Source: Exiguobacterium sp. s146 (GTDB lineage: Bacteria; Bacillota; Bacilli; Exiguobacteriales; Exiguobacteriaceae). From it: a stretch of DNA of 64,000 nt. The stretch covers positions 496,001 to 560,000 of the forward strand of contig NZ_JACSMA010000002.1 of NCBI RefSeq assembly GCF_018618415.1, read 5' to 3'. A model generated the notes under the pieces. The model ran no database searches, had not been told where the DNA came from, and saw nothing but the letters and a program-made list of their open reading frames with translations. Below are positions 10,924 through 26,611 of this stretch, in pieces. The translations under genes and the position numbers were made by a program. How positions within the stretch are numbered: position 1 is the stretch's first letter; each line of letters opens with the position of its first letter.

Positions 10924-11511
10924 TCACAGAAAGCGCGGCGATACCCCGTGTCGCTCGAGCGTCTCGACGAGCGGACGAATCGGCAGACCGACGACGTTAT
11001 AAAAGTCCCCTTCGAGCCGTTCGACGAACAGACCGCCCGACCCTTGAATCCCATAGGCACCGGCCTTATCATATGGCTCCGTCGAATCGAGATAGCCGTC
11101 GAGCCAAGCGTCCGGGATGTCGATGAACGTGACGTGCGTCGTCGTGACGAACAAGTCTTGGCGCTCGGGTCCGATGATGCTGACGCCGGTGAGCACTTCA
11201 TGTGTCGCCCCGGATAGGCGCTGCAACATGTTCCGTGCGTCTTCCCGGTCTTTCGGCTTCTCTAAAATCGTCCCGTCTAAGACGACGACCGTATCTGAGC
11301 CGATGACGACGGCGTCACGGTTGGTTCGAGCGACGTCCATCGCCTTCTCACGCGCGAGGCGGCCGACATACTCGTCCGGGTGTTCCCGTCCGTTCGTCCC
11401 TTCGACGACGTTCGATGGGATGACCTCATGGGTGATCCCGGCCTGGGTCAACAGTTCGGTCCGCCGCGGCGACATCGAGGCGAGGATGACACGTTTCTGT
11501 GTTGGTTTCAT
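10924..11511 (-). CDS. maf: Maf family nucleotide pyrophosphatase
   Basis: 195-residue Maf protein, a nucleoside triphosphate pyrophosphatase linked to septum formation and nucleotide-pool cleaning. Conserved elements are ILASMSPRRTELL at the N-terminus, VIGSDTVVVLDG and the C-terminal VEGDFYNVVGLP-like segment (EGDFYNVVGLP). The start at 11511 is set by AAGGAG 8 bases upstream. A clear sigma-A promoter precedes it and radC follows with overlapping codons. Confidence 0.95.
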   Translation of the reverse strand: MKPTQKRVILASMSPRRTELLTQAGITHEVIPSNVVEGTNGREHPDEYVGRLAREKAMDVARTNRDAVVIGSDTVVVLDGTILEKPKDREDARNMLQRLSGATHEVLTGVSIIGPERQDLFVTTTHVTFIDIPDAWLDGYLDSTEPYDKAGAYGIQGSGGLFVERLEGDFYNVVGLPIRPLVETLERHGVSPRFL

Positions 11512-11572
11512 TGTAGCGACTCCTTCCATATGTGCGTAACGGGCTTCTTTCCCGTATCACACTTCACTGTTG

Positions 11573-11613: not shown

Positions 11614-11647
11614 CAAAAAAACGTCCCTTCATTTCGAAGGGACGTGC
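11614..11647 (-). terminator. terminator of the pilus operon
   Basis: Minus-strand ACGTCCCTTC pairs with GAAGGGACGT around a short loop, followed by seven T. It lies right after the pilO stop and closes the pil gene block. Confidence 0.9.
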
Positions 11648-11649
11648 GG

Positions 11650-12357
11650 TCACGGTGTCGTATAGTCGTACACCGGGATGTCTTTCGGGGTGAACGTCTG
11701 CGCCGGTACGTAGCGGTCCTCGACAAGTTGATCGAGGTCCGGGCGATAGAACGCATCGAGTTCGACCGTGAAGTCGAGCGGCTCGGCCGTCTCGGTCGTG
11801 TTCGGTCCCGTCTCCGTCGGTCCGGTGAATTGGACCGTGCGCAAGATGTGAATCCGGTTCATCGACTCGACTGACTCGAGGAATAAGACGAGTGACTCGT
11901 ACGTGTCCGCTTGGAGCGAGACCGTCGAGCGGACCGATGAGGCGTTGACCGGCGTAATTTCGACTGGTTCGGCCGGTTCAGCCGTCGCGCTCACATCGTT
12001 CGGTTCCGGTTCGTCGATGTCTTCCGGCACTTCCGATTCGGCGATGATACCGTCGGCGAAGGCGATGCTCGTCACGCGGACGTCCGATAGTTGGCTCGCT
12101 TGGGACAACGTCTCGACGACCGTATCGAGCGCCGCTTCGGTCGGGACGCGCGTCTGTAGCCGCTGTGAGTCGGCGACGTCGACGACTTCCCCTTCTTGGC
12201 GCAACAGTTCGAGCTTCGTCTGTTCGAGCGACAGTTCGCGTTCGAGCGACTTCACGTTGCCTTGGTGGATGAAGTATTGGTAACCAAAATAAGACGGTAC
12301 GGCGATGGCCGCGAACAAACAGATTGTGAAAATCAAATAAATCGTCGAGCGCTTCAT
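11650..12357 (-). CDS. pilO: PilO-like type IV pilus alignment protein
   Basis: 235-residue bitopic protein: one N-terminal membrane segment (about residues 6-27), a coiled-coil stretch (about 33-60), and a C-terminal domain with the pattern STVSLQADTYESLVLFLESVESMNRI. This is the PilO/GspM-like ferredoxin fold that forms the alignment subcomplex with PilN. An acidic Pro/Glu linker sits near the middle. The start overlaps the pilM-pilN gene by 4 bases. Sequence similarity is weak by eye, so the call leans on topology and operon context. Confidence 0.75.
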   Translation of the reverse strand: MKRSTIYLIFTICLFAAIAVPSYFGYQYFIHQGNVKSLERELSLEQTKLELLRQEGEVVDVADSQRLQTRVPTEAALDTVVETLSQASQLSDVRVTSIAFADGIIAESEVPEDIDEPEPNDVSATAEPAEPVEITPVNASSVRSTVSLQADTYESLVLFLESVESMNRIHILRTVQFTGPTETGPNTTETAEPLDFTVELDAFYRPDLDQLVEDRYVPAQTFTPKDIPVYDYTTP

Positions 12358-13997
12358 TCGCTCACCACCTCCTCATCGGTCGTCTCTTCCGTCTCGCCTT
12401 CCGGTGTCTCACCCTCTGGGGTTTCCCCTTCCGGCGTCTCCGGTTCGGCATCGATGAACGTGAAGGTGAATTCGCCGATATAGCGTGGGAGCGGTTCGTC
12501 TGTCGAGTCGAGCACGCTCGGCGACAGCGTCGAATCCGTGTCGGTGTCCGTCTCTTCTTGTTCCGTCTCCGCTTTCGTCTCGGTCGTTACGCCGAGTAGT
12601 TTGACGTTCTCAAACCGCACGTCGTTCAAGAGCGAGCGTTGGAACGCGTTCAAATCGGCGAGCGTCTCGAACTGGGTGCGCACGCTCATGAGCGAACCGT
12701 CGGCGTAGTTATACGTCAACACGTAGCCCGTCGGCGGCAATTGTTCCGTCAAGGCCCGCAGTGCTGGCACGGCCAACTTCTCTTCGGCCGTGAGCGCCGT
12801 CACCGTTTGGTCGAGTGACAGGACTTGCTGCCCCTTCGAGTTCACTTGCTCGGTCTGGTAGATGCGGACGAGCTGCAACTGTTCTTCAAGCTGCGCCTCT
12901 TTCTGCTTCATCTCGTTCACTTCATAGAACAAGTACCCGGTCGCTCCGCCGCCGATCAACAGCGCGAGCAAACTCGCGATAATCGGCCACCGGAGCGTCA
13001 CATCGGTCGAGTTGATGAAGTTGGCGTCGTGCTCCTTGTCGAGCGTCGCCATGCCAAGGAGCGGCAACATCTGATGCGACAAGGGTGTCGCGTGCGAGAG
13101 CGGGAGCGGGTCAGCGATTCGTTTGACCGGCACCATCGCCTCACTTTCAATCGTCTGGACGAGGTCATCCAGGTTCGGAATTGTCCCTGAGACGAGCAAC
13201 TCGTCAATCGGACGACCGTCCGTCCGGAGCGAGTAGCGATAAAAGTCGAGGAAGCGAGCGAGTTCGTTCAACCACTCGTCCGTCTGTGTGGCGAGGGTCT
13301 CTTTCGAGCCGCTATATGTATACGTAATGATTCCGTCCGTCGTTTCGGCACGGTACGGGAGATCCGTCTCGATGGCCCGGATAAACCGGACTTGCCCTTC
13401 CTCAAGGACGAGCAACTGGTGCGCGAACGGTGTCACGTGCCAGAGGAGCGTCGATTTGAGCGGGTCGAGCGTCTCGATACGAGCCACCCCGTTCGCGATG
13501 GCGACCGGACGCGGAACGATTTTCTTTAAGACGAACCCTCGCTTTTTCATATAAGTGCGAATGGCTTTCGTCAACTCAACCGAGACGGCATGGAGCATGA
13601 CTTCGGTCTTCGTCTCCGTCTCGCCGAGCACCTCATAGTCGAAGGCGACGTCGTCGAACGGCAAGATGATTGAGCTGCCGATTTCCATGAACAGATAGCC
13701 GCGAATCTCATCTTTCGGGATCGTCGATGGAATCTCGACTTTACGGGACAACACCTCGGTCTCGGCCATATCGACGGCACAGACCATCCCTTTTCGTACT
13801 TTCAGTTTACGGCACAGTTCATCGAAGGCGAGACCGAATGCGTTCTCGTCTTCGATGCGTCCCCCCGTATAGGCGCCTTTCGCCAATTGGACGGAGGCGC
13901 TGCGCTTGAACACGCCTTGTTTGATCACGGCCCCGTGGATGCTGAGTGCATCGAACGAGAAATACGCGACCGTTCCTTTCTCTATAGACCGGCTCAT
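12354..13997 (-). CDS. PilM-PilN fusion, type IV pilus inner-membrane platform protein
   Basis: 547-residue protein combining two normally separate pilus components. Residues 1-320 resemble the actin-like PilM (SFDALSIHGAVI at the phosphate loop, VDMAETEVLSRKVEIP, and the IEIG-like segment LFMEIGSSIILPFDD). A membrane segment at about 337-358 and a coiled coil at 360-390 then give a PilN-like part with the QLPPTGYVLTYNY region. The C-terminus is acidic and contains three ETPEG repeats. In most species PilM is cytoplasmic and PilN membrane-bound, so the fusion would tether both. It begins 12 bases after pilD and overlaps pilO. Confidence 0.75.
   Translation of the reverse strand: MSRSIEKGTVAYFSFDALSIHGAVIKQGVFKRSASVQLAKGAYTGGRIEDENAFGLAFDELCRKLKVRKGMVCAVDMAETEVLSRKVEIPSTIPKDEIRGYLFMEIGSSIILPFDDVAFDYEVLGETETKTEVMLHAVSVELTKAIRTYMKKRGFVLKKIVPRPVAIANGVARIETLDPLKSTLLWHVTPFAHQLLVLEEGQVRFIRAIETDLPYRAETTDGIITYTYSGSKETLATQTDEWLNELARFLDFYRYSLRTDGRPIDELLVSGTIPNLDDLVQTIESEAMVPVKRIADPLPLSHATPLSHQMLPLLGMATLDKEHDANFINSTDVTLRWPIIASLLALLIGGGATGYLFYEVNEMKQKEAQLEEQLQLVRIYQTEQVNSKGQQVLSLDQTVTALTAEEKLAVPALRALTEQLPPTGYVLTYNYADGSLMSVRTQFETLADLNAFQRSLLNDVRFENVKLLGVTTETKAETEQEETDTDTDSTLSPSVLDSTDEPLPRYIGEFTFTFIDAEPETPEGETPEGETPEGETEETTDEEVVSE
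12396..12440 (-). repeat. 3 x 15-bp tandem repeat encoding ETPEG
   Basis: Three consecutive 15-base units encode Glu-Thr-Pro-Glu-Gly near the C-terminus of the PilM-PilN fusion. The copies differ at several silent positions, so the array is not a recent perfect duplication. Confidence 0.85.
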
Positions 13998-14009
13998 GCT
14001 GGTTTCCCC

Positions 14010-14762
14010 CTACATCAAATCAAAATACCATTCAAAGAAGCGTTCGCTGAACCAAAACGTCAGCATCGTGCCGAGTGCGATTGACGGCACGAACGGAATC
14101 GGCTGTTTGCGATCTATCCGTTTCAAGCCAATCAGCGTCAATCCGACGATCGCGCCGATTAAGCTCGATAAAAAGAGTGCGACGAGTACGTCGCGTGGCC
14201 CGAGGACGAGCCCGATTACTGTAAAGAGTTTGACATCGCCGGCCCCAAGTCCCCCCTTGGAGACGAAAAAAACGGTGGCGAGGACGGAAAAACCGAGCGC
14301 CGCTCCGGCAAGCGGGCTCCACCAGGCCATACCCGCGCTATACGCGAGCAAGAGGAGGACCGGTGCCGTGAACAACAAGATGACGTTCGGCACGAGCATC
14401 GTCGATAAATCTGACATCGCCAAAGCGAGGAGCGTCGACAAGAAGACGAAGGCGAGGAGCGTCGTGAGGCTGAAGCCATACAGCCAGAAGCTATAGGCGT
14501 AACCGACCGCTCCGAGCAGTTCGAAGAGCGGATACGTCGGCGCGATCCGCCCGCCACAGCCGCGACATTTCCCGCGCAGGAACACGTAACCGAAGACCGG
14601 AATCAGTTCCCAAGCGGAGAGGACGTGTCCGCATGACGGACAGTGCGAGCGCGGCGTGACGATGGACTGTTTACGTGGCACGCGGAGCCCGACGACGTTC
14701 GTGAATGACGTGATGACAGCCCCAAGGACGAGGCTATAAATGAGTCCGATGAGTTCAACCAA
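14010..14762 (-). CDS. pilD: prepilin peptidase PilD/ComC
   Basis: 250-residue type IV prepilin peptidase and N-methyltransferase in the membrane. The N-terminal zinc-type cytoplasmic loop has four cysteines (C41, C44, C66, C69). The two catalytic aspartates are in MSDLSTMLVPN (D118) and GLGAGDVKLF (D176). About seven to eight membrane segments follow. It should cleave the four prepilin-like proteins of this island after glycine. B. subtilis has comC, the same enzyme family, at this syntenic position between folC and maf, so it may also serve competence pilins. Confidence 0.93.
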   Translation of the reverse strand: MVELIGLIYSLVLGAVITSFTNVVGLRVPRKQSIVTPRSHCPSCGHVLSAWELIPVFGYVFLRGKCRGCGGRIAPTYPLFELLGAVGYAYSFWLYGFSLTTLLAFVFLSTLLALAMSDLSTMLVPNVILLFTAPVLLLLAYSAGMAWWSPLAGAALGFSVLATVFFVSKGGLGAGDVKLFTVIGLVLGPRDVLVALFLSSLIGAIVGLTLIGLKRIDRKQPIPFVPSIALGTMLTFWFSERFFEWYFDLM

Positions 14763-14798
14763 TCAAGGTCACTTCCTTACTTGTAAGTATATGCCAAA

Positions 14799-14844
14799 AA
14801 CAGAAAACCGGCTAGGCTGAGCGAGTGCCCAGCGCCAGCCGGAA
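14799..14844 (-). terminator. terminator after the pilin gene
   Basis: Minus-strand CCGGCTGGCGCTGGGC and a complementary GCTCAGCCTAGCCGG arm form an imperfect hairpin, followed by a T-rich tract. It lies between the major pilin gene and pilD. It would reduce expression of pilD and the downstream genes relative to the pilin. Confidence 0.75.
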
Positions 14845-14847
14845 GAA

Positions 14848-15330
14848 TTATTCTACAGCATCTTTATTGATAGTTTTTTCACTTTCATATGCTGCAGATG
14901 TACCGATTGACTTTTCACCATTCAAAAATACTGAATAAGAATAACTATCATCGCTACCAACAGTTACTTTAACTAGTGCATTTTTATATTCTCCATCGCT
15001 ATACGGATCTTTCATGGCATCGATGTACGAACTAGCGTCAGTTCCAGTAGCTGTAGCACCTTCCGCTGTTGCTTCTTTAAATCTAAGTGTTGTATCAGAA
15101 GTAACTGGGTTTGACGCCACATAAAGTTTTGCAGCATTAACCATCTGCTTCGCGTCTGATACCATCGCGTCTTTACGTGAGTTCTCGATGATTCCACCAA
15201 TCGCGACAACCGCGATCGCTGCGATAATCCCTAAGATGACGACGACGACGAGCAACTCGACGAGTGTGAGTCCACGCTCATCTTTCAATTGTTTGGCATC
15301 TTGCCAAATCATTTTCATTTTCTCTAACAT
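14848..15330 (-). CDS. type IV major pilin (prepilin)
   Basis: 160-residue prepilin. A charged leader of about 19 residues ends in DERG, followed by the class III cleavage site G/LTLVELL and a hydrophobic helix (VVVVILGIIAAIAVVAIGG); the essential Glu at +5 of the mature protein is present. The C-terminal half is polar, with Ala/Thr/Ser-rich stretches and no cysteine pair. Downstream codons are clearly more AT-rich than in the flanking genes. It has its own likely promoter and a terminator, as expected for an abundant major subunit. A ComGC-like origin is possible. Confidence 0.92.
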   Translation of the reverse strand: MLEKMKMIWQDAKQLKDERGLTLVELLVVVVILGIIAAIAVVAIGGIIENSRKDAMVSDAKQMVNAAKLYVASNPVTSDTTLRFKEATAEGATATGTDASSYIDAMKDPYSDGEYKNALVKVTVGSDDSYSYSVFLNGEKSIGTSAAYESEKTINKDAVE

Positions 15331-15392
15331 GATTCATTCTCCCCTTTTGTGTGTTGTGCTGTGTTGTGTGCTGCATGCATTACCTTCGACCT

Positions 15393-15430
15393 AATAACAA
15401 GTAGAACAATTTTACTATACATTCAAAAAA
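15393..15430 (-). promoter_or_regulatory. probable promoter of the major pilin gene
   Basis: AT-rich region upstream of the pilin gene, with a TTTTCA-like -35 and a TATAGT -10 spaced 17 bases apart, on the minus strand. Box positions are approximate. It is located between the pilC stop and the pilin start, and the long leader contains a CA-rich repeat. Confidence 0.4.
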
Positions 15431-15472
15431 TAGGATTGAAAAGATACAAATCTGCAAATAAATAAAAACTTT

Positions 15473-16690
15473 CTACTGATTTTGGATATCGCCATAAATT
15501 TGGAACATCGGGACGACAATCGCGATGACGATGACGCCAACGATGCTCGCCAAGACGACAATCAACAGCGGCTCGATAATCGACTTCAGCCGGTCCGTCG
15601 TCGTCTCGACCTCGGTCTCATAAAACTCCGCGACCTCGTTCAACATCGAGTCCAAATCCCCGCTCTCCTCGCCGACGGCAATCATTTGCGTCATGAGCGG
15701 CGGGAAGCTATCGTTCCGTTCGAGTGGTTCATGGAGCGGAATGCCTTGTGCCATCATCTTGCGTGCTTGGCCAAGCCCTTTCCGGATGACCCGGTTCGAA
15801 ACGATTTTCTCGGTAATCTCAATCGCCGATAAAATCGGGACCGCCGCTTGGAGCAAAACGGCCAAACTGCGCGTCAATAACGCGATTTGTGACTTTAGGA
15901 TGATTGGCCCGAAAATCGGCATCTTCAACAGCAAGCCATCGATGATGTACCGCTCTTTGTCACGCTTCAACATCCATGTGAAGACGAGCAGTGCGACGAG
16001 GGCCCCGCCGAAGATGAGCCACCAATAGGCGGCGACGAAGTCCGAGACGGCAACGACGATGCGTGTGATGAGCGGGAGTTCCCCGCCGAGCTGTCCGAAG
16101 ATGCTCGCGAACGTCGGGACGACGTTGACCATCAGGAACGCGACGACGCCGATGGCGACGATCGAGACGACGAGCGGATACGTCAACGCCGAGATGACTT
16201 TCCGTTTGACGTCATACTGTTTTTGGAGCTGGAGCCCGATTTGGTCGAGCGCCTCCTCCAAGTTACCGCTCGCCTCACCCGCAAGTGCCATCGAGCTGAA
16301 GAAGTTCGAGAACACGCGTGGATGCTTCTTGATTGCTTCCGAGAAGGCAATCCCTTCACGTAAATCGTCCTCGACTTGGCTGAGCGTCTTCTTCAACACT
16401 TTCGATTCGGTCTGGACGCGCAAGATCGACGTCGCCCGGACGATTGGCACACCGGCCCGGATGAGCGTCGCGAACTGGCGGACGTACATAATCAAATGCT
16501 CAATCTTGACCCGCTCGGGTAGCAGGTTGACTTCTTTGTTCAATCCCGTCGACTCGAGTTCAGCGAGCTCGGTAACAAGAATCGATTCTTGGCGCAGCTT
16601 TTCTTTCGCCTCCCGGAGCGAGACGGCGGTGACCCGCCCCTTCTTCCGCTTTCCGTTCAGCAGTTTACCTTCATATTGGAAGATGGCCAT
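15473..16690 (-). CDS. pilC: type IV pilus inner-membrane platform protein PilC
   Basis: 405-residue GspF/PilC-type platform protein with two tandem cytoplasmic domains and three membrane segments. The second-half motif FPPLMTQMIAVGEESGDLDSMLNEVA and the first-half EVF-like segment (RVFSNFFSSMALAGEASGNLEEALDQIG) are characteristic. It connects the ATPases PilB and PilT to the pilus base. It lies 4 bases downstream of pilT. Confidence 0.96.
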   Translation of the reverse strand: MAIFQYEGKLLNGKRKKGRVTAVSLREAKEKLRQESILVTELAELESTGLNKEVNLLPERVKIEHLIMYVRQFATLIRAGVPIVRATSILRVQTESKVLKKTLSQVEDDLREGIAFSEAIKKHPRVFSNFFSSMALAGEASGNLEEALDQIGLQLQKQYDVKRKVISALTYPLVVSIVAIGVVAFLMVNVVPTFASIFGQLGGELPLITRIVVAVSDFVAAYWWLIFGGALVALLVFTWMLKRDKERYIIDGLLLKMPIFGPIILKSQIALLTRSLAVLLQAAVPILSAIEITEKIVSNRVIRKGLGQARKMMAQGIPLHEPLERNDSFPPLMTQMIAVGEESGDLDSMLNEVAEFYETEVETTTDRLKSIIEPLLIVVLASIVGVIVIAIVVPMFQIYGDIQNQ

Positions 16691-16694
16691 TCAG

Positions 16695-17729
16695 TCACCT
16701 CTCTTCATTTGGTACGGCGTTCGGGTTGATGATGCCTTGGCGGACGAGCTGTTCGATCGCCATGTCCATCGTCTGCATCCCGTTCTGCCGGTTCGTCTGG
16801 ATGACGGTCGGAAGTTGGAACTCCTTCTCGTTCCGAATCAAGTTGGCGACGGCCGGATTGCCAATCATAATCTCCATCGCGGCGACACGCCCTTTCGGCA
16901 CGTCGACACGCGGGAATAAGCGCTGACTGACGACACCGAGCAAGACGTTGGCGAGCTGGGTCCGAATCTGGTCCTGTTGCTCGGCCGGGAACGCGTCGAT
17001 GACCCGACTGACGGTCGACATCGCGCTCGACGTGTGGAGCGTCGCCATGACGAGATGGCCCGTCTCGGCGGCCGTCATCGCCGTCGAGATTGTCTCTAGG
17101 TCACGCATCTCCCCGAGCAAGATGACGTCCGGGTCTTGCCGGAGCGCGGCCCGAAGCCCGTCGACGAACTTCATGACGTCCGATCCGATCTCGCGCTGGT
17201 CGACGATGCTCTGATCGTGCGAGTGCAAATACTCGATCGGGTCCTCGAGCGTGATGATCCGTTTTCGCTGCGTCCGGTTAATCTCATGGATCATCGCGGC
17301 GAGCGTCGTCGACTTTCCCGACCCCGTCGGTCCCGTGACGAGGATGAGCCCGTACGGCTTCTCGATCAATCGCTTTAACACTTGCGGCAAATCGAGCTCA
17401 TTCATCGTCGGGATTTCCCCGGAAATGGACCGGAACGCAATGGCGACCGTGCCCCGTTGGTAATAGGCGTTGACCCGGAATCGCGACACGCGGGGGACTC
17501 CGAACGAGAAATCGAGGTCGCGTTGCATCTCCAGCCGGCCCCGCATCTCCTCGGTCATAATCTCTTTCAAATAACTTTCAATATGGAGCGGCAACACTTT
17601 CTCGTCACCCATCGTGATCAGACTGCCGTCGACCCGGATAATCGGCGGTGAGCCGGCGGTCAAATGGATGTCCGAGGCGCGTTGTTCGACTGCTTTCGTT
17701 AAAATCACTTCAATCGACTGATGGATCAT
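16695..17729 (-). CDS. pilT: type IV pilus retraction ATPase PilT
   Basis: 344-residue PilT-type hexameric ATPase that depolymerises pili and drives twitching. Walker A is GPTGSGKSTTLAAM and Walker B is VILLGEMRD. The His box ATLHTSSA and the C-terminal AIRNLIR-like segment (PAVANLIRNEKEF) distinguish PilT from PilB. The normal PilT length supports the call. It sits in the order pilB-pilT-pilC with 4-base gaps. Presence of a retraction ATPase separates this system from the ComG competence pilus. Confidence 0.95.
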   Translation of the reverse strand: MIHQSIEVILTKAVEQRASDIHLTAGSPPIIRVDGSLITMGDEKVLPLHIESYLKEIMTEEMRGRLEMQRDLDFSFGVPRVSRFRVNAYYQRGTVAIAFRSISGEIPTMNELDLPQVLKRLIEKPYGLILVTGPTGSGKSTTLAAMIHEINRTQRKRIITLEDPIEYLHSHDQSIVDQREIGSDVMKFVDGLRAALRQDPDVILLGEMRDLETISTAMTAAETGHLVMATLHTSSAMSTVSRVIDAFPAEQQDQIRTQLANVLLGVVSQRLFPRVDVPKGRVAAMEIMIGNPAVANLIRNEKEFQLPTVIQTNRQNGMQTMDMAIEQLVRQGIINPNAVPNEER

Positions 17730-17733
17730 AGGC

Positions 17734-19392
17734 TCACTCCGTTATCACTGTTCTCAATATCTCTTCGGTGTTCGTCAGCCCGAGTGCGACTTTCTCGAGT
17801 CCATCGGCGAGGAGGAAGCGGACGCCTTGTGCTTTCGCATAGGCGACCATCTCGGCCTCCGTCGCCTGGTTCATAATCAACCGGCGCAATCCTTCATCGA
17901 TCGGCACGACCTCATGGATGGCGAGCCGGCCACGGTACCCCGTGAAGTTACACGAGGCGCAGCCGTTGCCGCGCATGATCCGTTCGACCGGGACGCCCTC
18001 AGCCGCAAACAGTTCCTGTTCCCGTTTCGAGACCGGCTGTTCGTGCCCGCAGTCCCGACAGACACGACGGACGAGCCGCTGGGCGACAAGCCCGGACGTC
18101 GAAGCGGCGACGAGGAACGGTTCGACCCCCATGTCAATCAAGCGGGTGATTGAGCTGATGGCCGAGTTCGTATGTAGTGTCGATAGCACCAAGTGACCGG
18201 TCAATGACGCCCGGATGGCAATCTCGGCCGTCTCGGTGTCCCGGATTTCCCCGACCATGACAATGTTCGGGTCTTGTCGCAAAATCGAGCGCAGACCCGA
18301 CGCGAACGTCAAGCCGACCTTGGCGTTGACTTGGACTTGGTTGATCCCGTCAAGCTGATACTCGACCGGATCCTCGACGGTGATGATGTTCTTCGATTCA
18401 TCATTCAGTTCACGTAGCGACGCATAGAGCGTCGACGACTTCCCTGACCCGGTCGGCCCGGTGATGAGAATAATCCCGTTCGGCCGTTTCAGCATGTCAC
18501 GGTACACCGCCTCGTTCTGGTCGCCGAAGTCGAGTTTCGTCAAATCGGTCAACCCTTCCGAGGAGTCGAGCACCCGGATGACGATTTTCTCGCCATACAT
18601 CGTCGGGAGCGTCGAGACGCGGAAGTCGTACGGGCGGCCGCGGAGCGTATATTTGATACGCCCGTCCTGCGGCAAACGGCTCTCGGTAATGTCCAAGTTA
18701 CTCATGACCTTGAGCCGTGTCAGCATGACGCTTTGAATCTTTCTCGGATAAATCGCCTCGGTCCGGAGGTCGCCGTCGACCCGAAAGCGGACGTACAACT
18801 GTTTCTCGTGCGGGTCGAAGTGGATATCCGAGGCGCGTTGGTCGATCGCGCTCAAGAAGAGCTGATTGACGAGCCGGATGACCGGCGCGTCGTCTCGCGA
18901 CGCCGTCTCTTCGCGTTCGAGTTCCGGTGCCTCTTCTTTTAAAATCTCGATGAGTGACGCATCCATCTCGTAATAGCGGCCAATCGTCTTGCGAATCTGT
19001 TCGCGAGTGGCGATGCCGACCTCGATGTTCATCCCTGTCTGGAGCCGGACGTCATCGATGGCAATCAAGTCGAGCGGGTCCGCCGTCGCGATGAACAGCG
19101 TGTTCCCTTGGAGCGAGATCGGCATGATGTCGTGTTTTTGGGCGATGACTTTCGGGACGAGTTTCGTCACGGTCACGTTGATGTCTTCTGAATATAAGGA
19201 AATGACCGGTACGTTCAACTGTTCGTGCAACACTTGAATCAATTGGGTCTCGGTCAAATAGTTCAATCGCATGAGCGCATCCCCGAGCTTTTCCCCGGTC
19301 CGCTTTTGGGCGAGCGCCTCGTCGAGCTGGGCTTGCGTGATGATACCGGCCTCGAGGAGCATCTCGCCGAGGCGTTTCTTCGTTCGTCTCAA
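17734..19392 (-). CDS. pilB: type IV pilus assembly ATPase PilB
   Basis: 552-residue GspE/PilB extension ATPase. The N-terminal MshEN-type domain (RLGEMLLEAGIITQAQLDEAL, then a repeat with MPISL) could bind c-di-GMP, though this is inference. The core has Walker A GPTGSGKSSTLYASL, an Asp box and Walker B IVMVGEIRD. The zinc tetracysteine motif appears as CRDCG and CASC about 30 residues later. The full-length architecture indicates pilus polymerisation, and pilT follows directly. Confidence 0.96.
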   Translation of the reverse strand: MRRTKKRLGEMLLEAGIITQAQLDEALAQKRTGEKLGDALMRLNYLTETQLIQVLHEQLNVPVISLYSEDINVTVTKLVPKVIAQKHDIMPISLQGNTLFIATADPLDLIAIDDVRLQTGMNIEVGIATREQIRKTIGRYYEMDASLIEILKEEAPELEREETASRDDAPVIRLVNQLFLSAIDQRASDIHFDPHEKQLYVRFRVDGDLRTEAIYPRKIQSVMLTRLKVMSNLDITESRLPQDGRIKYTLRGRPYDFRVSTLPTMYGEKIVIRVLDSSEGLTDLTKLDFGDQNEAVYRDMLKRPNGIILITGPTGSGKSSTLYASLRELNDESKNIITVEDPVEYQLDGINQVQVNAKVGLTFASGLRSILRQDPNIVMVGEIRDTETAEIAIRASLTGHLVLSTLHTNSAISSITRLIDMGVEPFLVAASTSGLVAQRLVRRVCRDCGHEQPVSKREQELFAAEGVPVERIMRGNGCASCNFTGYRGRLAIHEVVPIDEGLRRLIMNQATEAEMVAYAKAQGVRFLLADGLEKVALGLTNTEEILRTVITE

Positions 19393-19393
19393 C

Positions 19394-19675
19394 TTACTTC
19401 ACCATCCTCTGTGGTACCTCCTGTGCGACGTCTCGCTGTTCGATGAACGCACTGAGTGCCGCACCGCCGGCCAAACCGAGGGCGAGGAGAACCCACGCCC
19501 ACCACGTCCGCTCGAGCCCTTCGACATACAGGCTGTAAACGCCGAGCGAGAGCACGGCGACGAGCAACGCGATGACGCCTTTCGTCTCACGTTTCCGAAT
19601 GTACGGAATCGACAAGGCGAACACGGTCAATGTGGCGAGTACCCAAAAGGCGACCAAAATCAAATATCCGATCAT
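19394..19675 (-). CDS. small three-helix membrane protein in the pilus operon
   Basis: 93-residue membrane protein with three predicted segments (roughly residues 3-25, 33-52 and 60-78) and a short polar tail. I recognise no family. Its ATG overlaps the stop of the VanW-like gene (ATGA) and it ends one base before pilB, so it is tightly embedded in the pilus operon. A pilus-assembly role is inferred from position only. Confidence 0.7.
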   Translation of the reverse strand: MIGYLILVAFWVLATLTVFALSIPYIRKRETKGVIALLVAVLSLGVYSLYVEGLERTWWAWVLLALGLAGGAALSAFIEQRDVAQEVPQRMVK

Positions 19676-20907
19676 CCGACTGCCCCCTCACTTGGTACCG
19701 GGTCAGTGTCATGAACCGGTGGTTGTTCTGGCTGTTCGTCAAACTGATTCAATCCGTCATCCTCTACATCGTCATCAAACGGGTCATCTTCCAGTGTTTC
19801 ATCTGGGAAAGTTGGGATGACCGGTTCGACCGGCTCTGGAGGCGGGAGCGGGACGGAACTTTTCGTCACGATCTCCGGAATCGGCTCGTAAAAATCAAAT
19901 CCAAGCAACTCAAGCGACTCGCCCGTATCCGTGATGCGGACACGGTACAGCTTGCCCGACTCGCCGGTCTGTCCGGATTGGGTCACAGACGAGCTGCCAG
20001 CCGTGAGCGATGGCGAGAAGCGGACGATGTTTTGGTACGGGACGCTCGTCACGTCCTCGACGCGTGATTCGTAGGCGCCGACAAACATTTTGCCGAGCAA
20101 TTGGACCGTCATCGCGTTCCCCTCTTCAAGCACGATGAGCGCGTACGGCGTCTGTTCCGTATTCTGGACGGCGAAGTTCGAGCGCTCGTCGACTTTGACG
20201 TCGTAGCCGAGCTCGATGCCGGTCGGGAGCGTCTCATGTTGCACCCGTTCAAGGATTTGGAACGGTGTCGCTGCGAACAATTGATACATCGATGACCCGA
20301 GCGTGCTGAGCGCGTCAAAATCTTCCCCGAACGCTTTCAGGCTGAAAATGTCCCCGGCTTCCATCTCGAAGCCGTTCATCCGCTCGAGTGCCGAACGCAT
20401 CGCTGGTGTCGGACTGACCGTGATCGAGGCGACGACTTCACTCTCCGTCGCCGTCATCTCGAGGACGACGTCCGAGTTCAAGTTCGAGGCCGCTTCGACG
20501 AGCGGTGGTGTCACCATCGAGAGCGTCACCGGCTGATTCTGTAAGTATGGCGTCAACCGCTCTTCGTCGACCGTCGTGACGAGCGGATATGTACCCGGTT
20601 CAGAAGCCGTCTTGAGCGTCGCATCGACGTTGAATGAGACGACGTCCTTGCCGACTTCGAGCGCCGTTCCATCGACGAGCGTCACTGTGAACGGCGTGTT
20701 GTTGAAGTCTTTGATGGCGTTATCGAGCCGGACGACCGCCTCTTCCTTCGTCATCCCCGACACATCGATGCCGGCCACGGTCGTCTCTTTATATGTAGCA
20801 CTCGTCTTTGCCGAGGCGTCGAGATAGTTCACGAGCCCGATTGTCGGCAATGACACGAGCAGGACGAGTCCTGCTAGGATGAACACATGCATCCCATATC
20901 GCTTCAT
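19672..20907 (-). CDS. VanW-like / PG-binding_4 membrane protein heading the pilus operon
   Basis: 411-residue protein with an N-terminal membrane anchor (residues 8-28). A YoaR/PG_binding_4-type domain follows (VAGIDVSGMTKEEAVVRL at about residue 45), then a VanW-like region recognisable by ILERVQHETLPTGIELGYDVKV and NTEQTPYALIV. The usual GGGVCQVSST-type segment is replaced by LSTLGSSMYQLF, without cysteine. The last 60 residues form a Pro/Glu/Asp-rich tail. It is the first gene of the minus-strand pil operon. It may anchor the machine to peptidoglycan, which is inference. Confidence 0.75.
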   Translation of the reverse strand: MKRYGMHVFILAGLVLLVSLPTIGLVNYLDASAKTSATYKETTVAGIDVSGMTKEEAVVRLDNAIKDFNNTPFTVTLVDGTALEVGKDVVSFNVDATLKTASEPGTYPLVTTVDEERLTPYLQNQPVTLSMVTPPLVEAASNLNSDVVLEMTATESEVVASITVSPTPAMRSALERMNGFEMEAGDIFSLKAFGEDFDALSTLGSSMYQLFAATPFQILERVQHETLPTGIELGYDVKVDERSNFAVQNTEQTPYALIVLEEGNAMTVQLLGKMFVGAYESRVEDVTSVPYQNIVRFSPSLTAGSSSVTQSGQTGESGKLYRVRITDTGESLELLGFDFYEPIPEIVTKSSVPLPPPEPVEPVIPTFPDETLEDDPFDDDVEDDGLNQFDEQPEQPPVHDTDPVPSEGAVG

Positions 20908-21070
20908 TCCATTTCCCCCTCTATTTCAAGTCAAATGAGACTTTTGAATTACTATCCGTTCCCACTGTAACTTTAGTATAATATGCATTGTACAGAAAAT
21001 AACAATTATTTCAGATGAAAAGTCTCTTTTTTCCTATCTTTAAATCAATTTTGAAAAGGTGGTCAATTCG
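20908..21070. promoter_or_regulatory. divergent promoter region of the two pilus operons
   Basis: 163 non-coding, AT-rich bases separate the minus-strand VanW-like/pil operon from the plus-strand minor-pilin operon. A perfect TATAAT is visible on the plus strand at about 20977-20982. A TATACT box with a TTATTT box 16 bases upstream is visible on the minus strand. Both directions could be controlled together. Confidence 0.5.
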
Positions 21071-21520
21071 TTGAACCGTTCCGAACAAGGTTTCACTCTC
21101 GTCGAAGTACTCGTCTCGATCGTCGTCGTCTCGATCCTGGCATTATCGCTTATGAATATCTTCTCCCAAAGCTTGCGAATCACCTCCTCGGATCTCGACC
21201 GGACCGTGGCGAACCAAGTCGCCCAAAACACGCTCAACACGTTGAAACGCCGGGCAGCCGAGACGCGGGACCCGATCGATATCGCGGCGCTCCAACAGAC
21301 ACCGGCCAACGTCTGCGATTTATGTGACGTCACGATTAACGGGCGCGCCTTCGATGTGACCATCCTCTCTCCGGACAACGAACCGACCGCCGACCTCGTC
21401 AACATCGAGATCACCGTCGCCTCGGAGACGTTGCTCCAACCGATTACATTGAAAGGAGTGGTGACGAATGCGACGCTTCAAGATAAATTCCCTGAGACGG
21501 ACGTTCCAGAGCTTCCGTGA
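21071..21520 (+). CDS. PilV-like minor pilin
   Basis: 149-residue prepilin-like protein with a very short leader (MNRSEQG) before the cleavage site G/FTLVEVLVSIVVVSILAL; Glu +5 is present. The mature part has a CDLCD cysteine pair, typical of minor pilins. The TTG at 21071 is preferred because AGGTGG lies 8 bases upstream, better placed than for the GTG at 21059. First gene of the plus-strand minor-pilin operon; its end overlaps the next gene by about 50 bases. Confidence 0.88.
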   Translation: MNRSEQGFTLVEVLVSIVVVSILALSLMNIFSQSLRITSSDLDRTVANQVAQNTLNTLKRRAAETRDPIDIAALQQTPANVCDLCDVTINGRAFDVTILSPDNEPTADLVNIEITVASETLLQPITLKGVVTNATLQDKFPETDVPELP

Positions 21521-22031
21521 CCGTGAGGACGGCGTCACGCTCGTCGAGCTGTTGCTCGCGCTCGTCATCTCGGCCATCTTCGCTGGGATCGTCATCACCG
21601 TTTTCTTGACCGGCTCGCTCGGTTTCCGATTGACGAACGATACGAGCTCACTTCGAAACGAGGCCGACTATTTAATCACGAGTGTTCTTCAGGATATCAA
21701 CCGGACCGAGTTCGACGCCTTGACCGTCAACGGGGATACATATTCGTTCCACCGTCTCCATACCCCGCGCATCTCGACGGAAGGCATCTTGTACCGTCAA
21801 GGCGATTACATGGAGAACGCTGTGCTCGAGCTCGCCCCGTCAAGTTTCGTGACGAACAATCCCGACGTCATCGTCCAGGCCGTCGACATTGACCTTCGCG
21901 ACGAAGTGACCGACCCGAGACGCGGACGTGAGGCGTACATCACCTCTGGATTGATTGAAATTCAAGTGACACTCGCCTCGCGTGAAGATTCAACGCTCGT
22001 CAAAACGTTCACGAGCACCATCCCGTTATGA
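21468..22031 (+). CDS. PilW-like minor pilin
   Basis: 187-residue prepilin-like protein with a basic leader of 22 residues, cleavage site G/VTLVELLLALVISAIFAG and Glu +5. The following region resembles PilW/ComGF-type minor pilins (SLRNEADYLITSVLQDIN). It overlaps the previous gene by 53 bases and the next by an ATGA junction, so the three are translationally coupled. Confidence 0.88.
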   Translation: MRRFKINSLRRTFQSFRDREDGVTLVELLLALVISAIFAGIVITVFLTGSLGFRLTNDTSSLRNEADYLITSVLQDINRTEFDALTVNGDTYSFHRLHTPRISTEGILYRQGDYMENAVLELAPSSFVTNNPDVIVQAVDIDLRDEVTDPRRGREAYITSGLIEIQVTLASREDSTLVKTFTSTIPL

Positions 22032-22045
22032 AAAGAGGGAGTCCG

Positions 22046-23707
22046 ATGAAACAAGATGAACGAGGCTATGTCCTCATCCTCGTCCTCGTGACGATGGCGG
22101 CACTCGCCGTCCTCTCGCTCGCGGCGATTCAAGTCAACTTGGCGACGAACAAGCAGACGAATTTCCGTGTCGACGAGACGCAACTCGATACCGACGTCAA
22201 AGGCGTGCTCGATGTGCTCGTCGCCGATCTCCGAGCGACGTTCCCGCTCCACGATGCGAACGTCGTCCAACCGTATATGGAGAACGAGCAGCTGTTCCAG
22301 GCGAAGGTCGACACTGTTCTCAAACAAAATACGTTGTATGCGGGGACACGCCAATCAGGCGACAACGATATCCGTTATACAATCGCGCGTTCGACAGCCG
22401 ATCAGGCGAACGCCCCGTTCACGACGGTGCTCACGTTGACGGCGACCGGGACGACAAAATCGAAAGCGGATCAGCCGATGCAGACGAGCTCGTATAGTCA
22501 AGAAGTGTACGTGACGGCTCTCCCGTCGTTCCTCTATTACGTCCTTGGTTCGGATGAGACGTTGACAATCAACGGTCCTCCGAAGATTGAAGGGAACTTG
22601 TTTGCCGGTACGGAGCTCACACTCGACCCCGATGCGAAGTATCAACTGAAAGATCAAATCAACACACTGAACAACAGTGCCTCGAGCCGGTTTTATCTCG
22701 ACGGTCGCATCGACCTCGGGAACGGTGCGACTTGCGACGGCTGCGAGACACCGAACTACTTCACGAATTCGACTACGCCGGGTGTGAACCATGAACCTGA
22801 GATTGGTCCGGTCGAGAGTACGTTTTCTCGCTTTAACTTGAATTACTCGGTCATCCAGTTCGCGAACCGACACCGAGGCACCGCCGGTAAATTACCTTAT
22901 ACGAATTCACCGAAGCAGACACTGTTTCAATCGACATTGATTCCAACATCGACGATTTCACCTTTCCTCAAGCAAACGTACGTCGTCGATGGAGAAACAA
23001 CGCCACGTGAGCGACCGACCGAGTTTATCGATTCCAGTCAGCTCAACTCGATTCAAACGTTACAAGTCGTCAATCTACCAGCTGGTGTAACAGGTCCGAT
23101 AGTCATCACCAAATCGATTGCGAACAGCTCCGTCCCGCTTCTTTTAAACGGAGACGTCACGATTGACGCTTTAGACACCATCACCATTAGCCGCCCACTA
23201 ATTATTAATGGAGATTTGACGATTCGTGGGAAAGTCGCGTTCAATACGACCGTATATGCATTGGGCGATGCCTTCATCGACCGTGCCGATGTATTGCCAG
23301 TCGCTTCTGGTGCGAATGATAGTTCTCTTGTCTTGCTCGCCGAAGGAAAGATTTTATTGAACCGAATCAATGAATTCCAGGATCGTTCTTCGACGCTACA
23401 AGCGTTCATGTATAGTGCCTCGACTGAACCGACTCGACTCTATTCTGTCGGCTCCATCGTCAACATGAAAGGTGGTTTGTATAGTAAAGGACCACTCGAA
23501 ATAAATACATTCCGCGGTTCTTTCAAATCATTACCGCAGCAAGCAAATAAACAAGCTTACTTCGCCCCTGGGAATGTGATTGCCTCTCCAGACGTCGACG
23601 ATTCACGTCTCATCATGGAATATAACGAGGGTGTGTTCCGTCAAATCGATACGCTCCCGGTCACGAACCAGCTCCAACTGTTCGTCGGTCAACAACTGAA
23701 GAACTAA
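22046..23707 (+). CDS. PilX-like pilus-associated protein
   Basis: 553-residue protein with a short leader (MKQDERG) and a hydrophobic helix YVLILVLVTMAALAVLSLAAIQ, as in PilX or GspK-like minor pilins. There is no Glu at position +5, which is also known for GspK-type subunits. The large C-terminal part contains beta-rich repeats with many Asn, Thr and Ile residues and a CDGC pair at about 228-231, so it may be the tip or adhesive subunit. The ATG at 22046 has GAGGGAG just upstream; an ATG at 22028 overlaps the previous stop. A bidirectional terminator follows. Confidence 0.8.
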   Translation: MKQDERGYVLILVLVTMAALAVLSLAAIQVNLATNKQTNFRVDETQLDTDVKGVLDVLVADLRATFPLHDANVVQPYMENEQLFQAKVDTVLKQNTLYAGTRQSGDNDIRYTIARSTADQANAPFTTVLTLTATGTTKSKADQPMQTSSYSQEVYVTALPSFLYYVLGSDETLTINGPPKIEGNLFAGTELTLDPDAKYQLKDQINTLNNSASSRFYLDGRIDLGNGATCDGCETPNYFTNSTTPGVNHEPEIGPVESTFSRFNLNYSVIQFANRHRGTAGKLPYTNSPKQTLFQSTLIPTSTISPFLKQTYVVDGETTPRERPTEFIDSSQLNSIQTLQVVNLPAGVTGPIVITKSIANSSVPLLLNGDVTIDALDTITISRPLIINGDLTIRGKVAFNTTVYALGDAFIDRADVLPVASGANDSSLVLLAEGKILLNRINEFQDRSSTLQAFMYSASTEPTRLYSVGSIVNMKGGLYSKGPLEINTFRGSFKSLPQQANKQAYFAPGNVIASPDVDDSRLIMEYNEGVFRQIDTLPVTNQLQLFVGQQLKN

Positions 23708-23708
23708 C

Positions 23709-23744
23709 AAAAAGAGGCTGCTCTCACGAGTAGCCTCTTTTCTG
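23709..23744. terminator. bidirectional terminator between the minor-pilin operon and the secreted-protein gene
   Basis: AAAGAGGCTGCT pairs with AGTAGCCTCTTT around a short loop. A-rich and T-rich flanks on the two sides make it functional in both directions. It lies between two convergent genes. Confidence 0.88.
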
Positions 23745-23753
23745 TAATGGAAA

Positions 23754-25322
23754 TTAATAGAAATCGCCAGACGGATCTTCGGTTCCTGGGTTCGGATCCG
23801 TGCCCGCTTTGACACGGACGTAGAACGTTTGGCTAATCACTTTTGGTCCTTCTCCTGCTTTAAATGATGCACTGACGTCCTCTGTGACCAGACCGATTTT
23901 CGCGATACCCGGCTTCAAGAGTGTCAATACGTCATCTTTTGCTGTCATGACATCCGTCCCTTCAAGGACAGTCAGGCCGTACCCTGTCACGTTTGCCGTC
24001 TCAGGCCAGAATTTGACCGGATAGCTGTATGGGCTGTCTGTCATGTAGAGGATGACGTTCGGTGTCGAGACTTTTTGTGGATACTCTTTGACGTTAATCA
24101 AGACAGGCATCGTCTGTCCGATATAATCTTTCAACTTCGCAACGACAGAGATGTTGCTCGTACTCCCATGCTCGGCTTGTACGGTAGCAGATGTGTTTTG
24201 ACTTGAGAGAAGTTTTAAGGCGGTCGAATCAACGTTCCACGTTACAGCAAGTGGATTGGCCAGTGCTTGTTTATCTTCCACCAATTGCTGCAGTGTCACC
24301 AAAGTCTGTTGTTTCACTAACGTGCCTGCTTCGTTTTTATATACCCATAACTCTTTGTCATTCGTACTTAATGATAAGTCAGGTAGTTTGACCACAACCT
24401 TCATATCATTTGATTTCACTTTTTGACCATTCGCGTATTCGTAGACAGCTTTCACAGTCGTCTCACCCGGATCCAACGCTTTTAACGTAACGCTTTGATT
24501 CGTTTGATTTGTCTGACTCACAAAACTAGCTTTATCAAGTTCCCAAGTAAGTTTTGCATTCTGCGGAATCGCCGCTTTCGCAGTCGATAAGTTAGCTGCT
24601 ACCGTTTTTGAATTCCCTAAATAAATCGTCGCTTCATTTGGAACATTGATGTTCAGTTCTTCGACCGTCACTGTCGTTTTGGTAAAGCCGCTTCCCGCAT
24701 CAGTAAACGAACGATCGTGTTTTTTTGCACCGCTCCCGTTTCCTGAATGATCAGCCTCCAACGAATAAGCGTATCTTCCAGAATCAAACGTATAGCTACC
24801 CGGCTTGTCTGCAATCAATTTGACTGTGATGAGATCAGAGAATGCTGCATTCTTATATTCATTACAAGATTCAAGACCCGTATTTTTCTTACCACACATA
24901 ATGTTAATTGTTCCTGTTAAACGACGTGTAGTAGAATCAAAATTTAAATTGTATTTATCTATGGTGCTTTTTACTACAGTCAAGCCTACAGGAATTGTTT
25001 CTTCAACCTTGACGGCCCACTCCACATATTTATAGGAGTTGATGTTCGGTCCTTTTTCAAAATCAAGGATGTTATTCAATGATAAGTCATACGTTAAGTC
25101 AAAACTGTCTCCAATGAGTACAGCTTCTGGCGTGATAGTTCGAATCGCCTCATCCTCAATCGTTGTTTGGAAAACAATGCCTTGGTTGTTCCCATTGCTA
25201 CCGCCATTGCCTTTCCCATTGCCCCTACCATTATTCGCGAACGTCGATGTATACGCGAACAACAACAAGACCATCCCTATTACTATGAGGAACCCGTACT
25301 TGGATCTTAGCTGCCTCTTCAT
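23754..25322 (-). CDS. secreted Ig-like (Big/DUF11-type) protein, candidate adhesin
   Basis: 522-residue exported protein. A signal peptide (about residues 1-29) is followed by a Gly/Asn low-complexity segment (about 30-48). A beta-rich domain then resembles conserved-repeat DUF11 or collagen-binding-like modules (TIPVGLTVVKS; LTGTINIMCG), and later segments look like bacterial Ig-like repeats (LSLSTNDKELWVYKN, GETTVKAVYEY). No LPXTG motif or C-terminal anchor is seen. The start has GGAGG 7 bases upstream. It is more AT-rich than its neighbours. Convergent with the minor-pilin operon, so a surface role linked to pili is possible but unproven. Confidence 0.65.
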   Translation of the reverse strand: MKRQLRSKYGFLIVIGMVLLLFAYTSTFANNGRGNGKGNGGSNGNNQGIVFQTTIEDEAIRTITPEAVLIGDSFDLTYDLSLNNILDFEKGPNINSYKYVEWAVKVEETIPVGLTVVKSTIDKYNLNFDSTTRRLTGTINIMCGKKNTGLESCNEYKNAAFSDLITVKLIADKPGSYTFDSGRYAYSLEADHSGNGSGAKKHDRSFTDAGSGFTKTTVTVEELNINVPNEATIYLGNSKTVAANLSTAKAAIPQNAKLTWELDKASFVSQTNQTNQSVTLKALDPGETTVKAVYEYANGQKVKSNDMKVVVKLPDLSLSTNDKELWVYKNEAGTLVKQQTLVTLQQLVEDKQALANPLAVTWNVDSTALKLLSSQNTSATVQAEHGSTSNISVVAKLKDYIGQTMPVLINVKEYPQKVSTPNVILYMTDSPYSYPVKFWPETANVTGYGLTVLEGTDVMTAKDDVLTLLKPGIAKIGLVTEDVSASFKAGEGPKVISQTFYVRVKAGTDPNPGTEDPSGDFY

Positions 25323-25366: not shown

Positions 25367-26611
25367 TCATACCCCTTTTTCTTCCTGTTCACAAGCGATT
25401 TTTTTCAAACTTTGGAAATAGGTTCTGACTTCACTGATAAAGTAGAGCGACCCCGTCACGACGAGCGTCTCGGATTTCTGTGTTTCGAGCCAAGCGGCCA
25501 ACCAATCTTGCCAGTCCACGTAACAAGCCCCATCGGCAATCAGACTGTCCTTCGTCCGGGTGCGCGGGAAATCGAACGTCGTCTCATAAACGTTCGCGAC
25601 CGTCTGAAGTGACGCAATCATCGCTGCCCGGTCCTTATCGGCGAGAATGGCAGCGAGGACGGTCACGTCACGTTCAAGTTTCAGCTGTTCGACGAGTGCA
25701 GCGACACCTTCCGCGTTATGCGCCCCATCGAGTATGATACGAGGCTGTCTCGAGATGAGCTCATAGCGTCCCGGATGTTGCGCCGACTCTAGTCCTGCTT
25801 GAATCGCTTCTGTTTTCCAGCCGAGATGGTGTGCGACGGCGACGGCACATGCCCCGTTGTACGCTTGATGGTGTCCGGTCAATCCGAGTGTCACCGGCGG
25901 CATCCCCTCATACGTGACGACTGTGTCAGCCCCGTCCTCTACAGATGTGACGAGTGGCGTGACGTCTTGTACCGGCGCATCCATCTCTTGCCCTTGTTGG
26001 TCGAGCAAGGCAATCAACCGCTCCTCCGTCAAACTATGGAACATCGGCACGCCCGGTTTCATGATTCCGAACTTCTCGAGCGCAATCTCTTCGAGCGTAT
26101 CGCCAAGGATGCCTTGATGGTCGTGCCCGATCGACGTCACGACGGTCGCGAACGGATGCTGCAACACGTTCGTCGAGTCGAGGCGGCCGCCGAGCCCGAC
26201 TTCCCAGATGACGAGGTCGGGCTGTTGTTCATGAAAATAGAGCCACGCCATGACCGTCAGCAGCTCGAACTCCGTCAATGTCTCCGGCGATTTGGCGGCG
26301 CAGTCGCGGACCCGGTTGGCGATATGGACGAGATCGTCTTCTCGAATCGGTTCCCCGTTCAACATGATCCGTTCCTCGAACTGAATGATGTACGGCGAGA
26401 TGAACGTCCCGACGTTCAAGCCTTGTTTCATCGCCATCGCCCGCAAGAACGCGACCGTCGACCCTTTCCCGTTCGTCCCCGCCACATGAATCGACGGCAA
26501 CTCCTCGACTTGTAGCGCGTCCAGCATCCACCTGATCCGCTTCATCCCCGGCTTAATCCCGAACCGCAACTGTCCATGTAGCCAATCAAATACATCTTGT
26601 CTCGTCTCCAT
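25367..26611 (-). CDS. folC: bifunctional folylpolyglutamate synthase / dihydrofolate synthase
   Basis: 414-residue Mur-ligase-like enzyme that adds glutamate to dihydropteroate and folates. The ATP loop is HVAGTNGKGSTVAFL, followed by TFISPYIIQFEERI, IWEVGLGGRLDSTN and ILDGAHNAEGV. In B. subtilis folC directly follows valS; here several genes separate the two. The short space before the divergent selO gene holds an extended -10 type promoter. Confidence 0.96.
   Translation of the reverse strand: METRQDVFDWLHGQLRFGIKPGMKRIRWMLDALQVEELPSIHVAGTNGKGSTVAFLRAMAMKQGLNVGTFISPYIIQFEERIMLNGEPIREDDLVHIANRVRDCAAKSPETLTEFELLTVMAWLYFHEQQPDLVIWEVGLGGRLDSTNVLQHPFATVVTSIGHDHQGILGDTLEEIALEKFGIMKPGVPMFHSLTEERLIALLDQQGQEMDAPVQDVTPLVTSVEDGADTVVTYEGMPPVTLGLTGHHQAYNGACAVAVAHHLGWKTEAIQAGLESAQHPGRYELISRQPRIILDGAHNAEGVAALVEQLKLERDVTVLAAILADKDRAAMIASLQTVANVYETTFDFPRTRTKDSLIADGACYVDWQDWLAAWLETQKSETLVVTGSLYFISEVRTYFQSLKKIACEQEEKGV

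Follow-up and report, generated by a model that had tools for sequence, protein, structure and literature searches.

This study examined a window of 64,000 nucleotides from the 2.85-Mb genome of Exiguobacterium sp. s146 (contig NZ_JACSMA010000002.1, positions 496,001 to 560,000), in which a set of type IV pilus genes (pil) lies between maf and folC. We consider it very probable that this locus encodes a type IVa pilus machine of the monoderm kind, that it has been inherited with the chromosome in Bacillales and is not newly acquired, and that comC, which we take to be the Bacillus subtilis counterpart of pilD, is a pilD gene kept after the pilus was lost.

The original prediction had placed a PilT-bearing type IV pilus, separate from comG, at the site where B. 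subtilis presumably has comC and spoIIB, and this part stands, as every pil gene it listed was recovered at its place as an intact open reading frame (ORF) in the ORF list and was supported by family searches. Its gene list lacked two genes, namely those of a protein with VanW and G5 domains (19672-20907) and of a 93-residue protein (19394-19675). On the minus strand, the order of transcription is VanW/G5 protein, 93-residue membrane protein, pilB, pilT, pilC, major pilin, pilD, pilM-pilN fusion and pilO, while two minor pilins and a pilin-like protein of 559 residues are encoded divergently on the plus strand, and the gene of a secreted, immunoglobulin-like (Ig-like) protein of 522 residues on the minus strand is convergent with that of the 559-residue protein. 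The flanks consist of maf, radC, mreBCD and minCD on one side, and of folC and valS on the other.

Identity of the pilus machine

The Walker A motif is intact in both PilT and PilB, as are the C-terminal AVANLIRN of PilT and the tetra-cysteine motif of PilB, and PilD displays both CxxC...CxxC and GAGD. PilT and the PilM part of the fusion lie over their cut-offs (Table 1), the PilN part was identified through homology to separate pilN genes and through its position, and PilB matches PF00437 strongly, its best NCBIfam match being TIGR02538 (619 bits, below the equivalog cut-off of 676). Class III leaders with Glu5, cut after the glycine of GLTLVE, GFTLVE and GVTLVE, were observed in the major pilin and the two minor pilins, respectively, all three of which are over the N_methyl cut-off, whereas the leader of the 559-residue protein (GYVLIL, cut likewise) lacks Glu5. 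The make-up of a ComG competence pilus, with ComGA, ComGB and ComGC and without PilT or PilM, PilN and PilO, does not describe this locus, because it has both PilT and PilMNO. The N-terminal MshEN domain of PilB carries the motif of the ATPases that bind cyclic di-GMP (c-di-GMP), so that binding is predicted from the sequence.

Comparatively, the gene content of the locus resembles that of the monoderm type IVa pili of Streptococcus sanguinis and Clostridium perfringens, in which PilB, PilT, PilC, PilD, PilM, PilN and PilO also occur in one cluster with a long-leader major pilin, several minor pilins and no secretin (PMC6916266). It departs from them in its PilM-PilN fusion, in the VanW/G5 protein at the head of the operon, in the intact MshEN domain of PilB and in its site between maf and folC.

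For comparison across genomes, contigs were scanned with a PilC alignment and the best 80 loci were kept with flanks of 10 kb, a choice biased to close relatives; six are from Exiguobacterium and nearly all the others from other Bacillales. The PilM-PilN fusion has a layout like that of GspL, and the Ig-like protein is genetically coupled to the locus and has a conserved end, which would fit a type II-like pseudopilus secreting the Ig-like protein as its cargo. This is an unlikely reading, though, since PilT is present in all 80 loci, the Ig-like protein has a Sec-type N-terminus of its own, and a monoderm cell has no outer membrane that cargo would need to pass.

A pil system serving DNA uptake only is very unlikely as well. 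Type IVa pili driven by PilT do import DNA in diderms, and this genome harbors one ComEC gene and two ComK-like genes (G000:C1:621128-621571 and G000:C2:685899-686333). Against this, a separate and complete-looking comG operon, the only one of the genome, was found on another contig, and the pil locus possesses a platform, motors, tip pilins and a secreted partner of its own; the comG filament is the one that takes up DNA in monoderms (PMC6916266). The search of the genome returned a single prepilin peptidase gene, the pilD of the pil locus, and no second one, a gene that the original prediction had named as speaking against it. With one peptidase gene and a separate comG operon, PilD presumably serves both sets of pilins, processing those of ComG too.

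Distribution of the locus and origin of comC

The locus had been perceived as an unusual island in a group that normally has only ComG and no retraction ATPase, and our data support neither view. PilT was detected in all 38 sampled Exiguobacteriaceae, adjoining PilB in each of the 19 genus members sampled, and, counted over the curated cut-off, in 221 of the 399 genomes drawn evenly from the class. The same gene order recurs at the same site in most of the 80 loci, including those of Anoxybacillus, Neobacillus, Metabacillus, Planococcus, Sporosarcina and Halobacillus, and can be written for many families as folC-minor pilins-G5-pilB-pilT-pilC-pilin-pilD-pilM-pilN-pilO-spoIIB-maf-radC-mreB. The VanW/G5 gene heads the operon in 79 of the 80, maf and radC lie downstream in 75, a SpoIIB-like gene stands between the pil genes and maf/radC in 61, and folC is seen upstream in 38, with the reach of the 10-kb flank limiting the remainder. 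The PilM-PilN fusion is a single ORF in 38 of 38 Exiguobacteriaceae; the two genes are separate in nearly all the non-Exiguobacterium loci. Recent acquisition as an island was ruled out by the presence of PilT throughout the family and by the conserved site; neither absence from close relatives, nor a shifted position, nor a discordant tree was observed, the tree being broadly congruent.

During the analysis of the direction of change, the surroundings of the prepilin peptidase gene were sampled at 14 loci in genomes without PilT. The neighbourhood was kept in half of them, as folC-comC-spoIIB-maf-radC-mreB (L157, L158, L159 and L167) or folC-comC-radC (L164 to L166), and in the other seven the peptidase was elsewhere or the flanks were too short. 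Pilus-bearing members of the same families hold the full operon at the comC site (L109 against L158, and L120 against L159). Among other classes of the phylum, 20 loci share the internal order pilB-pilT-pilC-pilin-pilD, and in none of them were folC and maf seen as flanks, suggesting that pilD was part of the operon before it sat between folC and maf. A PilD/ComC tree was rooted with sequences from those other classes, and in it ComC proteins branch from within the PilD of the class at about three points; the ComC of L158 and the PilD of L109, which belong to one family, are sisters (support 100/98), and monophyly of ComC, with four ComC rows held together, was rejected (approximately unbiased test, p-AU 0.0016). 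The main deep split is the same in the concatenated tree of PilB, PilT and PilC and in that of FolC, Maf, RadC and MreB; several nodes are weak. Since ComC is nested in PilD at these places, forms no single clade, and pilD belongs to the operon in other classes, comC is best read as a remnant; it looks like a relic left by repeated loss of the pil genes, in a history that is mostly, not purely, vertical. Where other Bacilli lost the pilus, pilD would have been kept for competence as comC.

Several observations weigh against an inherited type IVa locus with comC as its remnant. PilO, which is positionally conserved, scores 16.4 bits, under the Pfam cut-off of 22; the long ComC branches (L159, L165 and L166) are poorly placed; and some pil loci of the class lie outside the folC-maf interval. 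In one locus (L125, G097:C87:19700-39600, family f18), the pil genes cluster apart from the ComC found in the family, although spoIIB and maf still adjoin them; the locus is a candidate for transfer or replacement, and transfer into the site has probably occurred at least once. Caution is also due to the PilD/ComC tree, as prepilin peptidase trees are poorly supported across the superfamily (Denise et al. 2019, PMC6668835). The original prediction that a lone ancestral prepilin peptidase gene was the nucleation point, with the pil genes inserted around it, would agree with comC-only loci occupying exactly the pil site and with the transfer-like L125, but it is highly improbable given that the internal order, including the position of pilD, is common to other classes without the folC-maf flank, that ComC lies inside PilD at about three places and not in one clade, and that the same complex order, complete with the VanW/G5 gene and divergent minor pilins, is found in one family after another, a recurrence that repeated insertion would not bring about.

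B. subtilis has shaped the view that a competence pilus is the only pilus of Bacillales. Its comC-spoIIB region and the Exiguobacterium locus occupy the same chromosomal neighbourhood, by what we take to be the B. subtilis gene order, and both species have a comG operon; B. subtilis, used as a control genome, has no PilT over the cut-off, and the Exiguobacterium locus has no spoIIB but a whole pil operon. The missing spoIIB is in line with the description of Exiguobacterium as non-spore-forming (PMC5521131). With reference to earlier studies, Imam et al. 2011 (PMC3244431, Table 4) listed a single pil operon and a single com operon in the genome of E. sibiricum 255-15, a member of the same genus, along with pil operons of Geobacillus, and remarked that pil operons of Gram-positive bacteria contain pilT; the paper contains no discussion of the comC site, of a relic or of the VanW/G5 protein. 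Type IV pili genes were also listed for Exiguobacterium in 2017 (PMC5521131). Our search returned no specific literature on comC as a pil relic, on a G5 protein in pilus loci, on spoIIB and comC joined with pili, or on G5 domains joined with type IV pili, which is not proof of absence. Our data point to a locus for a retractable type IVa pilus that is common across the order and was probably present in its ancestor, the model species being a reduced case in which comC may have survived because competence still needs the peptidase.

Accessory proteins and proposed working

A membrane helix lies at the N-terminus of the VanW/G5 protein, its AlphaFold2 model has a mean predicted local distance difference test (pLDDT) of 88, and its C-terminal part matches solved G5 domains; the G5 part alone matched in the structure search, which returned no solved relatives for the N-terminal two thirds. 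A role in the cell wall is hypothesized, and a nearly universal component of this kind is relevant to how such pili cross a thick wall. For the 559-residue protein, the model (pLDDT 88.6; predicted template modelling score, pTM, 0.83) displays a 61-residue N-terminal helix and a large beta-rich head, which with the lack of Glu5 fits a tip subunit, and we infer that it is one. Related proteins occur in 38 of the 80 loci. The structure search gave it no significant solved relatives; the weak beta-helix matches, the best of which was to an ice-binding protein (E 0.0066), were not used. Next to the gene of the large tip pilin, several loci of Exiguobacterium and Bacillaceae have a gene, absent from this window, for an ankyrin-repeat-like membrane protein or lipoprotein of 190-280 residues (L189:2293-2955, L192:1974-2663 and L193:2314-2955; also L104, L214, L225, L241 and L259).

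The Ig-like protein may be a secreted partner of the pilus, and its C-terminal end is conserved. Out of 27 examined Ig-like proteins convergent with the large tip pilin, a set picked after the pattern was seen and with many related members, for which no p-value is given, 23 have Trp or Tyr as their last residue, preceded by a linker that is mostly acidic or Gly-rich, as compared with 3.7% (69/1842) of the other annotated ORFs of these loci. The endings include GDFY, DDRY, GRW, GKW and GDKY, and counterparts of the window's protein (23754-25322) were seen in L188-L190, L192-L196, L201, L209, L212, L213, L217, L221, L228, L229, L235 and L242. The C-terminal end is possibly a docking signal.

In monoderm type IVa systems, PilD matures the pilins, PilB extends and PilT retracts the fibre, PilC is the platform, and PilM, PilN and PilO form the assembly complex (PMC6916266). 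By analogy, PilD would trim the prepilins, major and minor alike, PilB would power extension through PilC, with c-di-GMP acting as a gate at its MshEN domain, and PilT would power retraction. The assembly complex would be held by PilO and the PilM-PilN fusion, in which a covalent link would take the place of the usual docking of PilN on PilM. The divergent minor pilins and the large Glu5-less subunit would cap the fibre, and the membrane-anchored VanW/G5 protein may guide or anchor it through the peptidoglycan. As the genome encodes 22 GGDEF domains, c-di-GMP is likely made, and with an MshEN domain over its curated cut-off, control of extension by c-di-GMP may reasonably be assumed. The predicted product is a c-di-GMP-tuned, PilT-retracted pilus for attachment or twitching. 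In five other loci of Bacillales (L113, L115, L120, L237 and L248), a large membrane protein with a GGDEF-like end is encoded between folC and the pil genes, and may link the pilus to c-di-GMP.

Taken jointly, we offer a tentative proposal that is rather doubtful as a whole, in which comC would be a repeatedly made relic of an ancestral pil operon, the VanW/G5 protein a dedicated monoderm component carrying the fibre through the peptidoglycan, and the Ig-like protein a partner whose very last residue, Trp or Tyr, would dock it on the large tip pilin.

Coordinates and minor features

Table 1. Genes and putative signals of the pil locus and its flanks, in positions of the window
Feature	Position	Strand	Evidence and remarks
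maf, flanking gene	10924..11529	-	PF02545 208 bits
Intrinsic-terminator-like hairpin, 11 pairs and T tract	11621..11645	-	After pilO, parts pil operon from maf; consensus scan only
PilO-like assembly subcomplex protein, 235 aa	11650..12357	-	PF04350; position and order kept in 79/80 best loci
PilM-PilN fusion, 547 aa (PilM actin-like domain, then transmembrane and PilN-like part)	12354..13997	-	PF11104 (PilM_2) 39 bits, cut-off 27
PilD prepilin peptidase, 250 aa, TTG start	14010..14762	-	PF06750 (A24_N) 109 bits; PF01478 (Peptidase_A24) 67 bits; Cys motif, GAGD
Major type IV pilin, 160 aa	14848..15330	-	PF07963 (N_methyl) over cut-off; TIGR02532; leader GLTLVE
Promoter-like site TTTTCA-17-TATAGT upstream of pilin gene	15414..15442	-	Consensus match only
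PilC platform protein, 405 aa	15473..16690	-	PF00482 (T2SSF) 205 bits
PilT retraction ATPase, 344 aa	16695..17729	-	TIGR01420 466 bits, cut-off 319; Walker A, AVANLIRN
PilB extension ATPase, 552 aa, N-terminal MshEN	17734..19392	-	PF00437 (T2SSE) 458 bits; PF05157 72 bits; NF053729 63 bits, cut-off 38
Small hydrophobic membrane protein, 93 aa	19394..19675	-	ORF; seen in 5/6 Exiguobacterium loci
Membrane-anchored VanW/G5-domain protein, 411 aa, first operon gene	19672..20907	-	PF07501 25.0 bits, cut-off 23; PF04294 24.5 bits, cut-off 27
Minor pilin 1, 153 aa	21059..21520	+	PF07963 34.5 bits; leader GFTLVE
Minor pilin 2, 187 aa	21468..22031	+	PF07963 27.2 bits; leader GVTLVE
Candidate tip subunit, 559 aa, large and pilin-like but lacking Glu5	22028..23707	+	AlphaFold2 model
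Secreted Ig-like protein, 522 aa, ends in GDFY	23754..25322	-	ORF; positional counterparts in many Bacillales
folC, flanking gene	25367..26611	-	Mur ligase domains

The total of terminator-like sites in the consensus scan was near chance, and the hairpin after pilO has the longest stem among them. A G+C-rich inverted repeat was observed between the pilin gene and pilD (14762-14847), and together with the promoter-like site ahead of the pilin gene (within 15330-15472) it could raise pilin expression above that of the rest of the operon.

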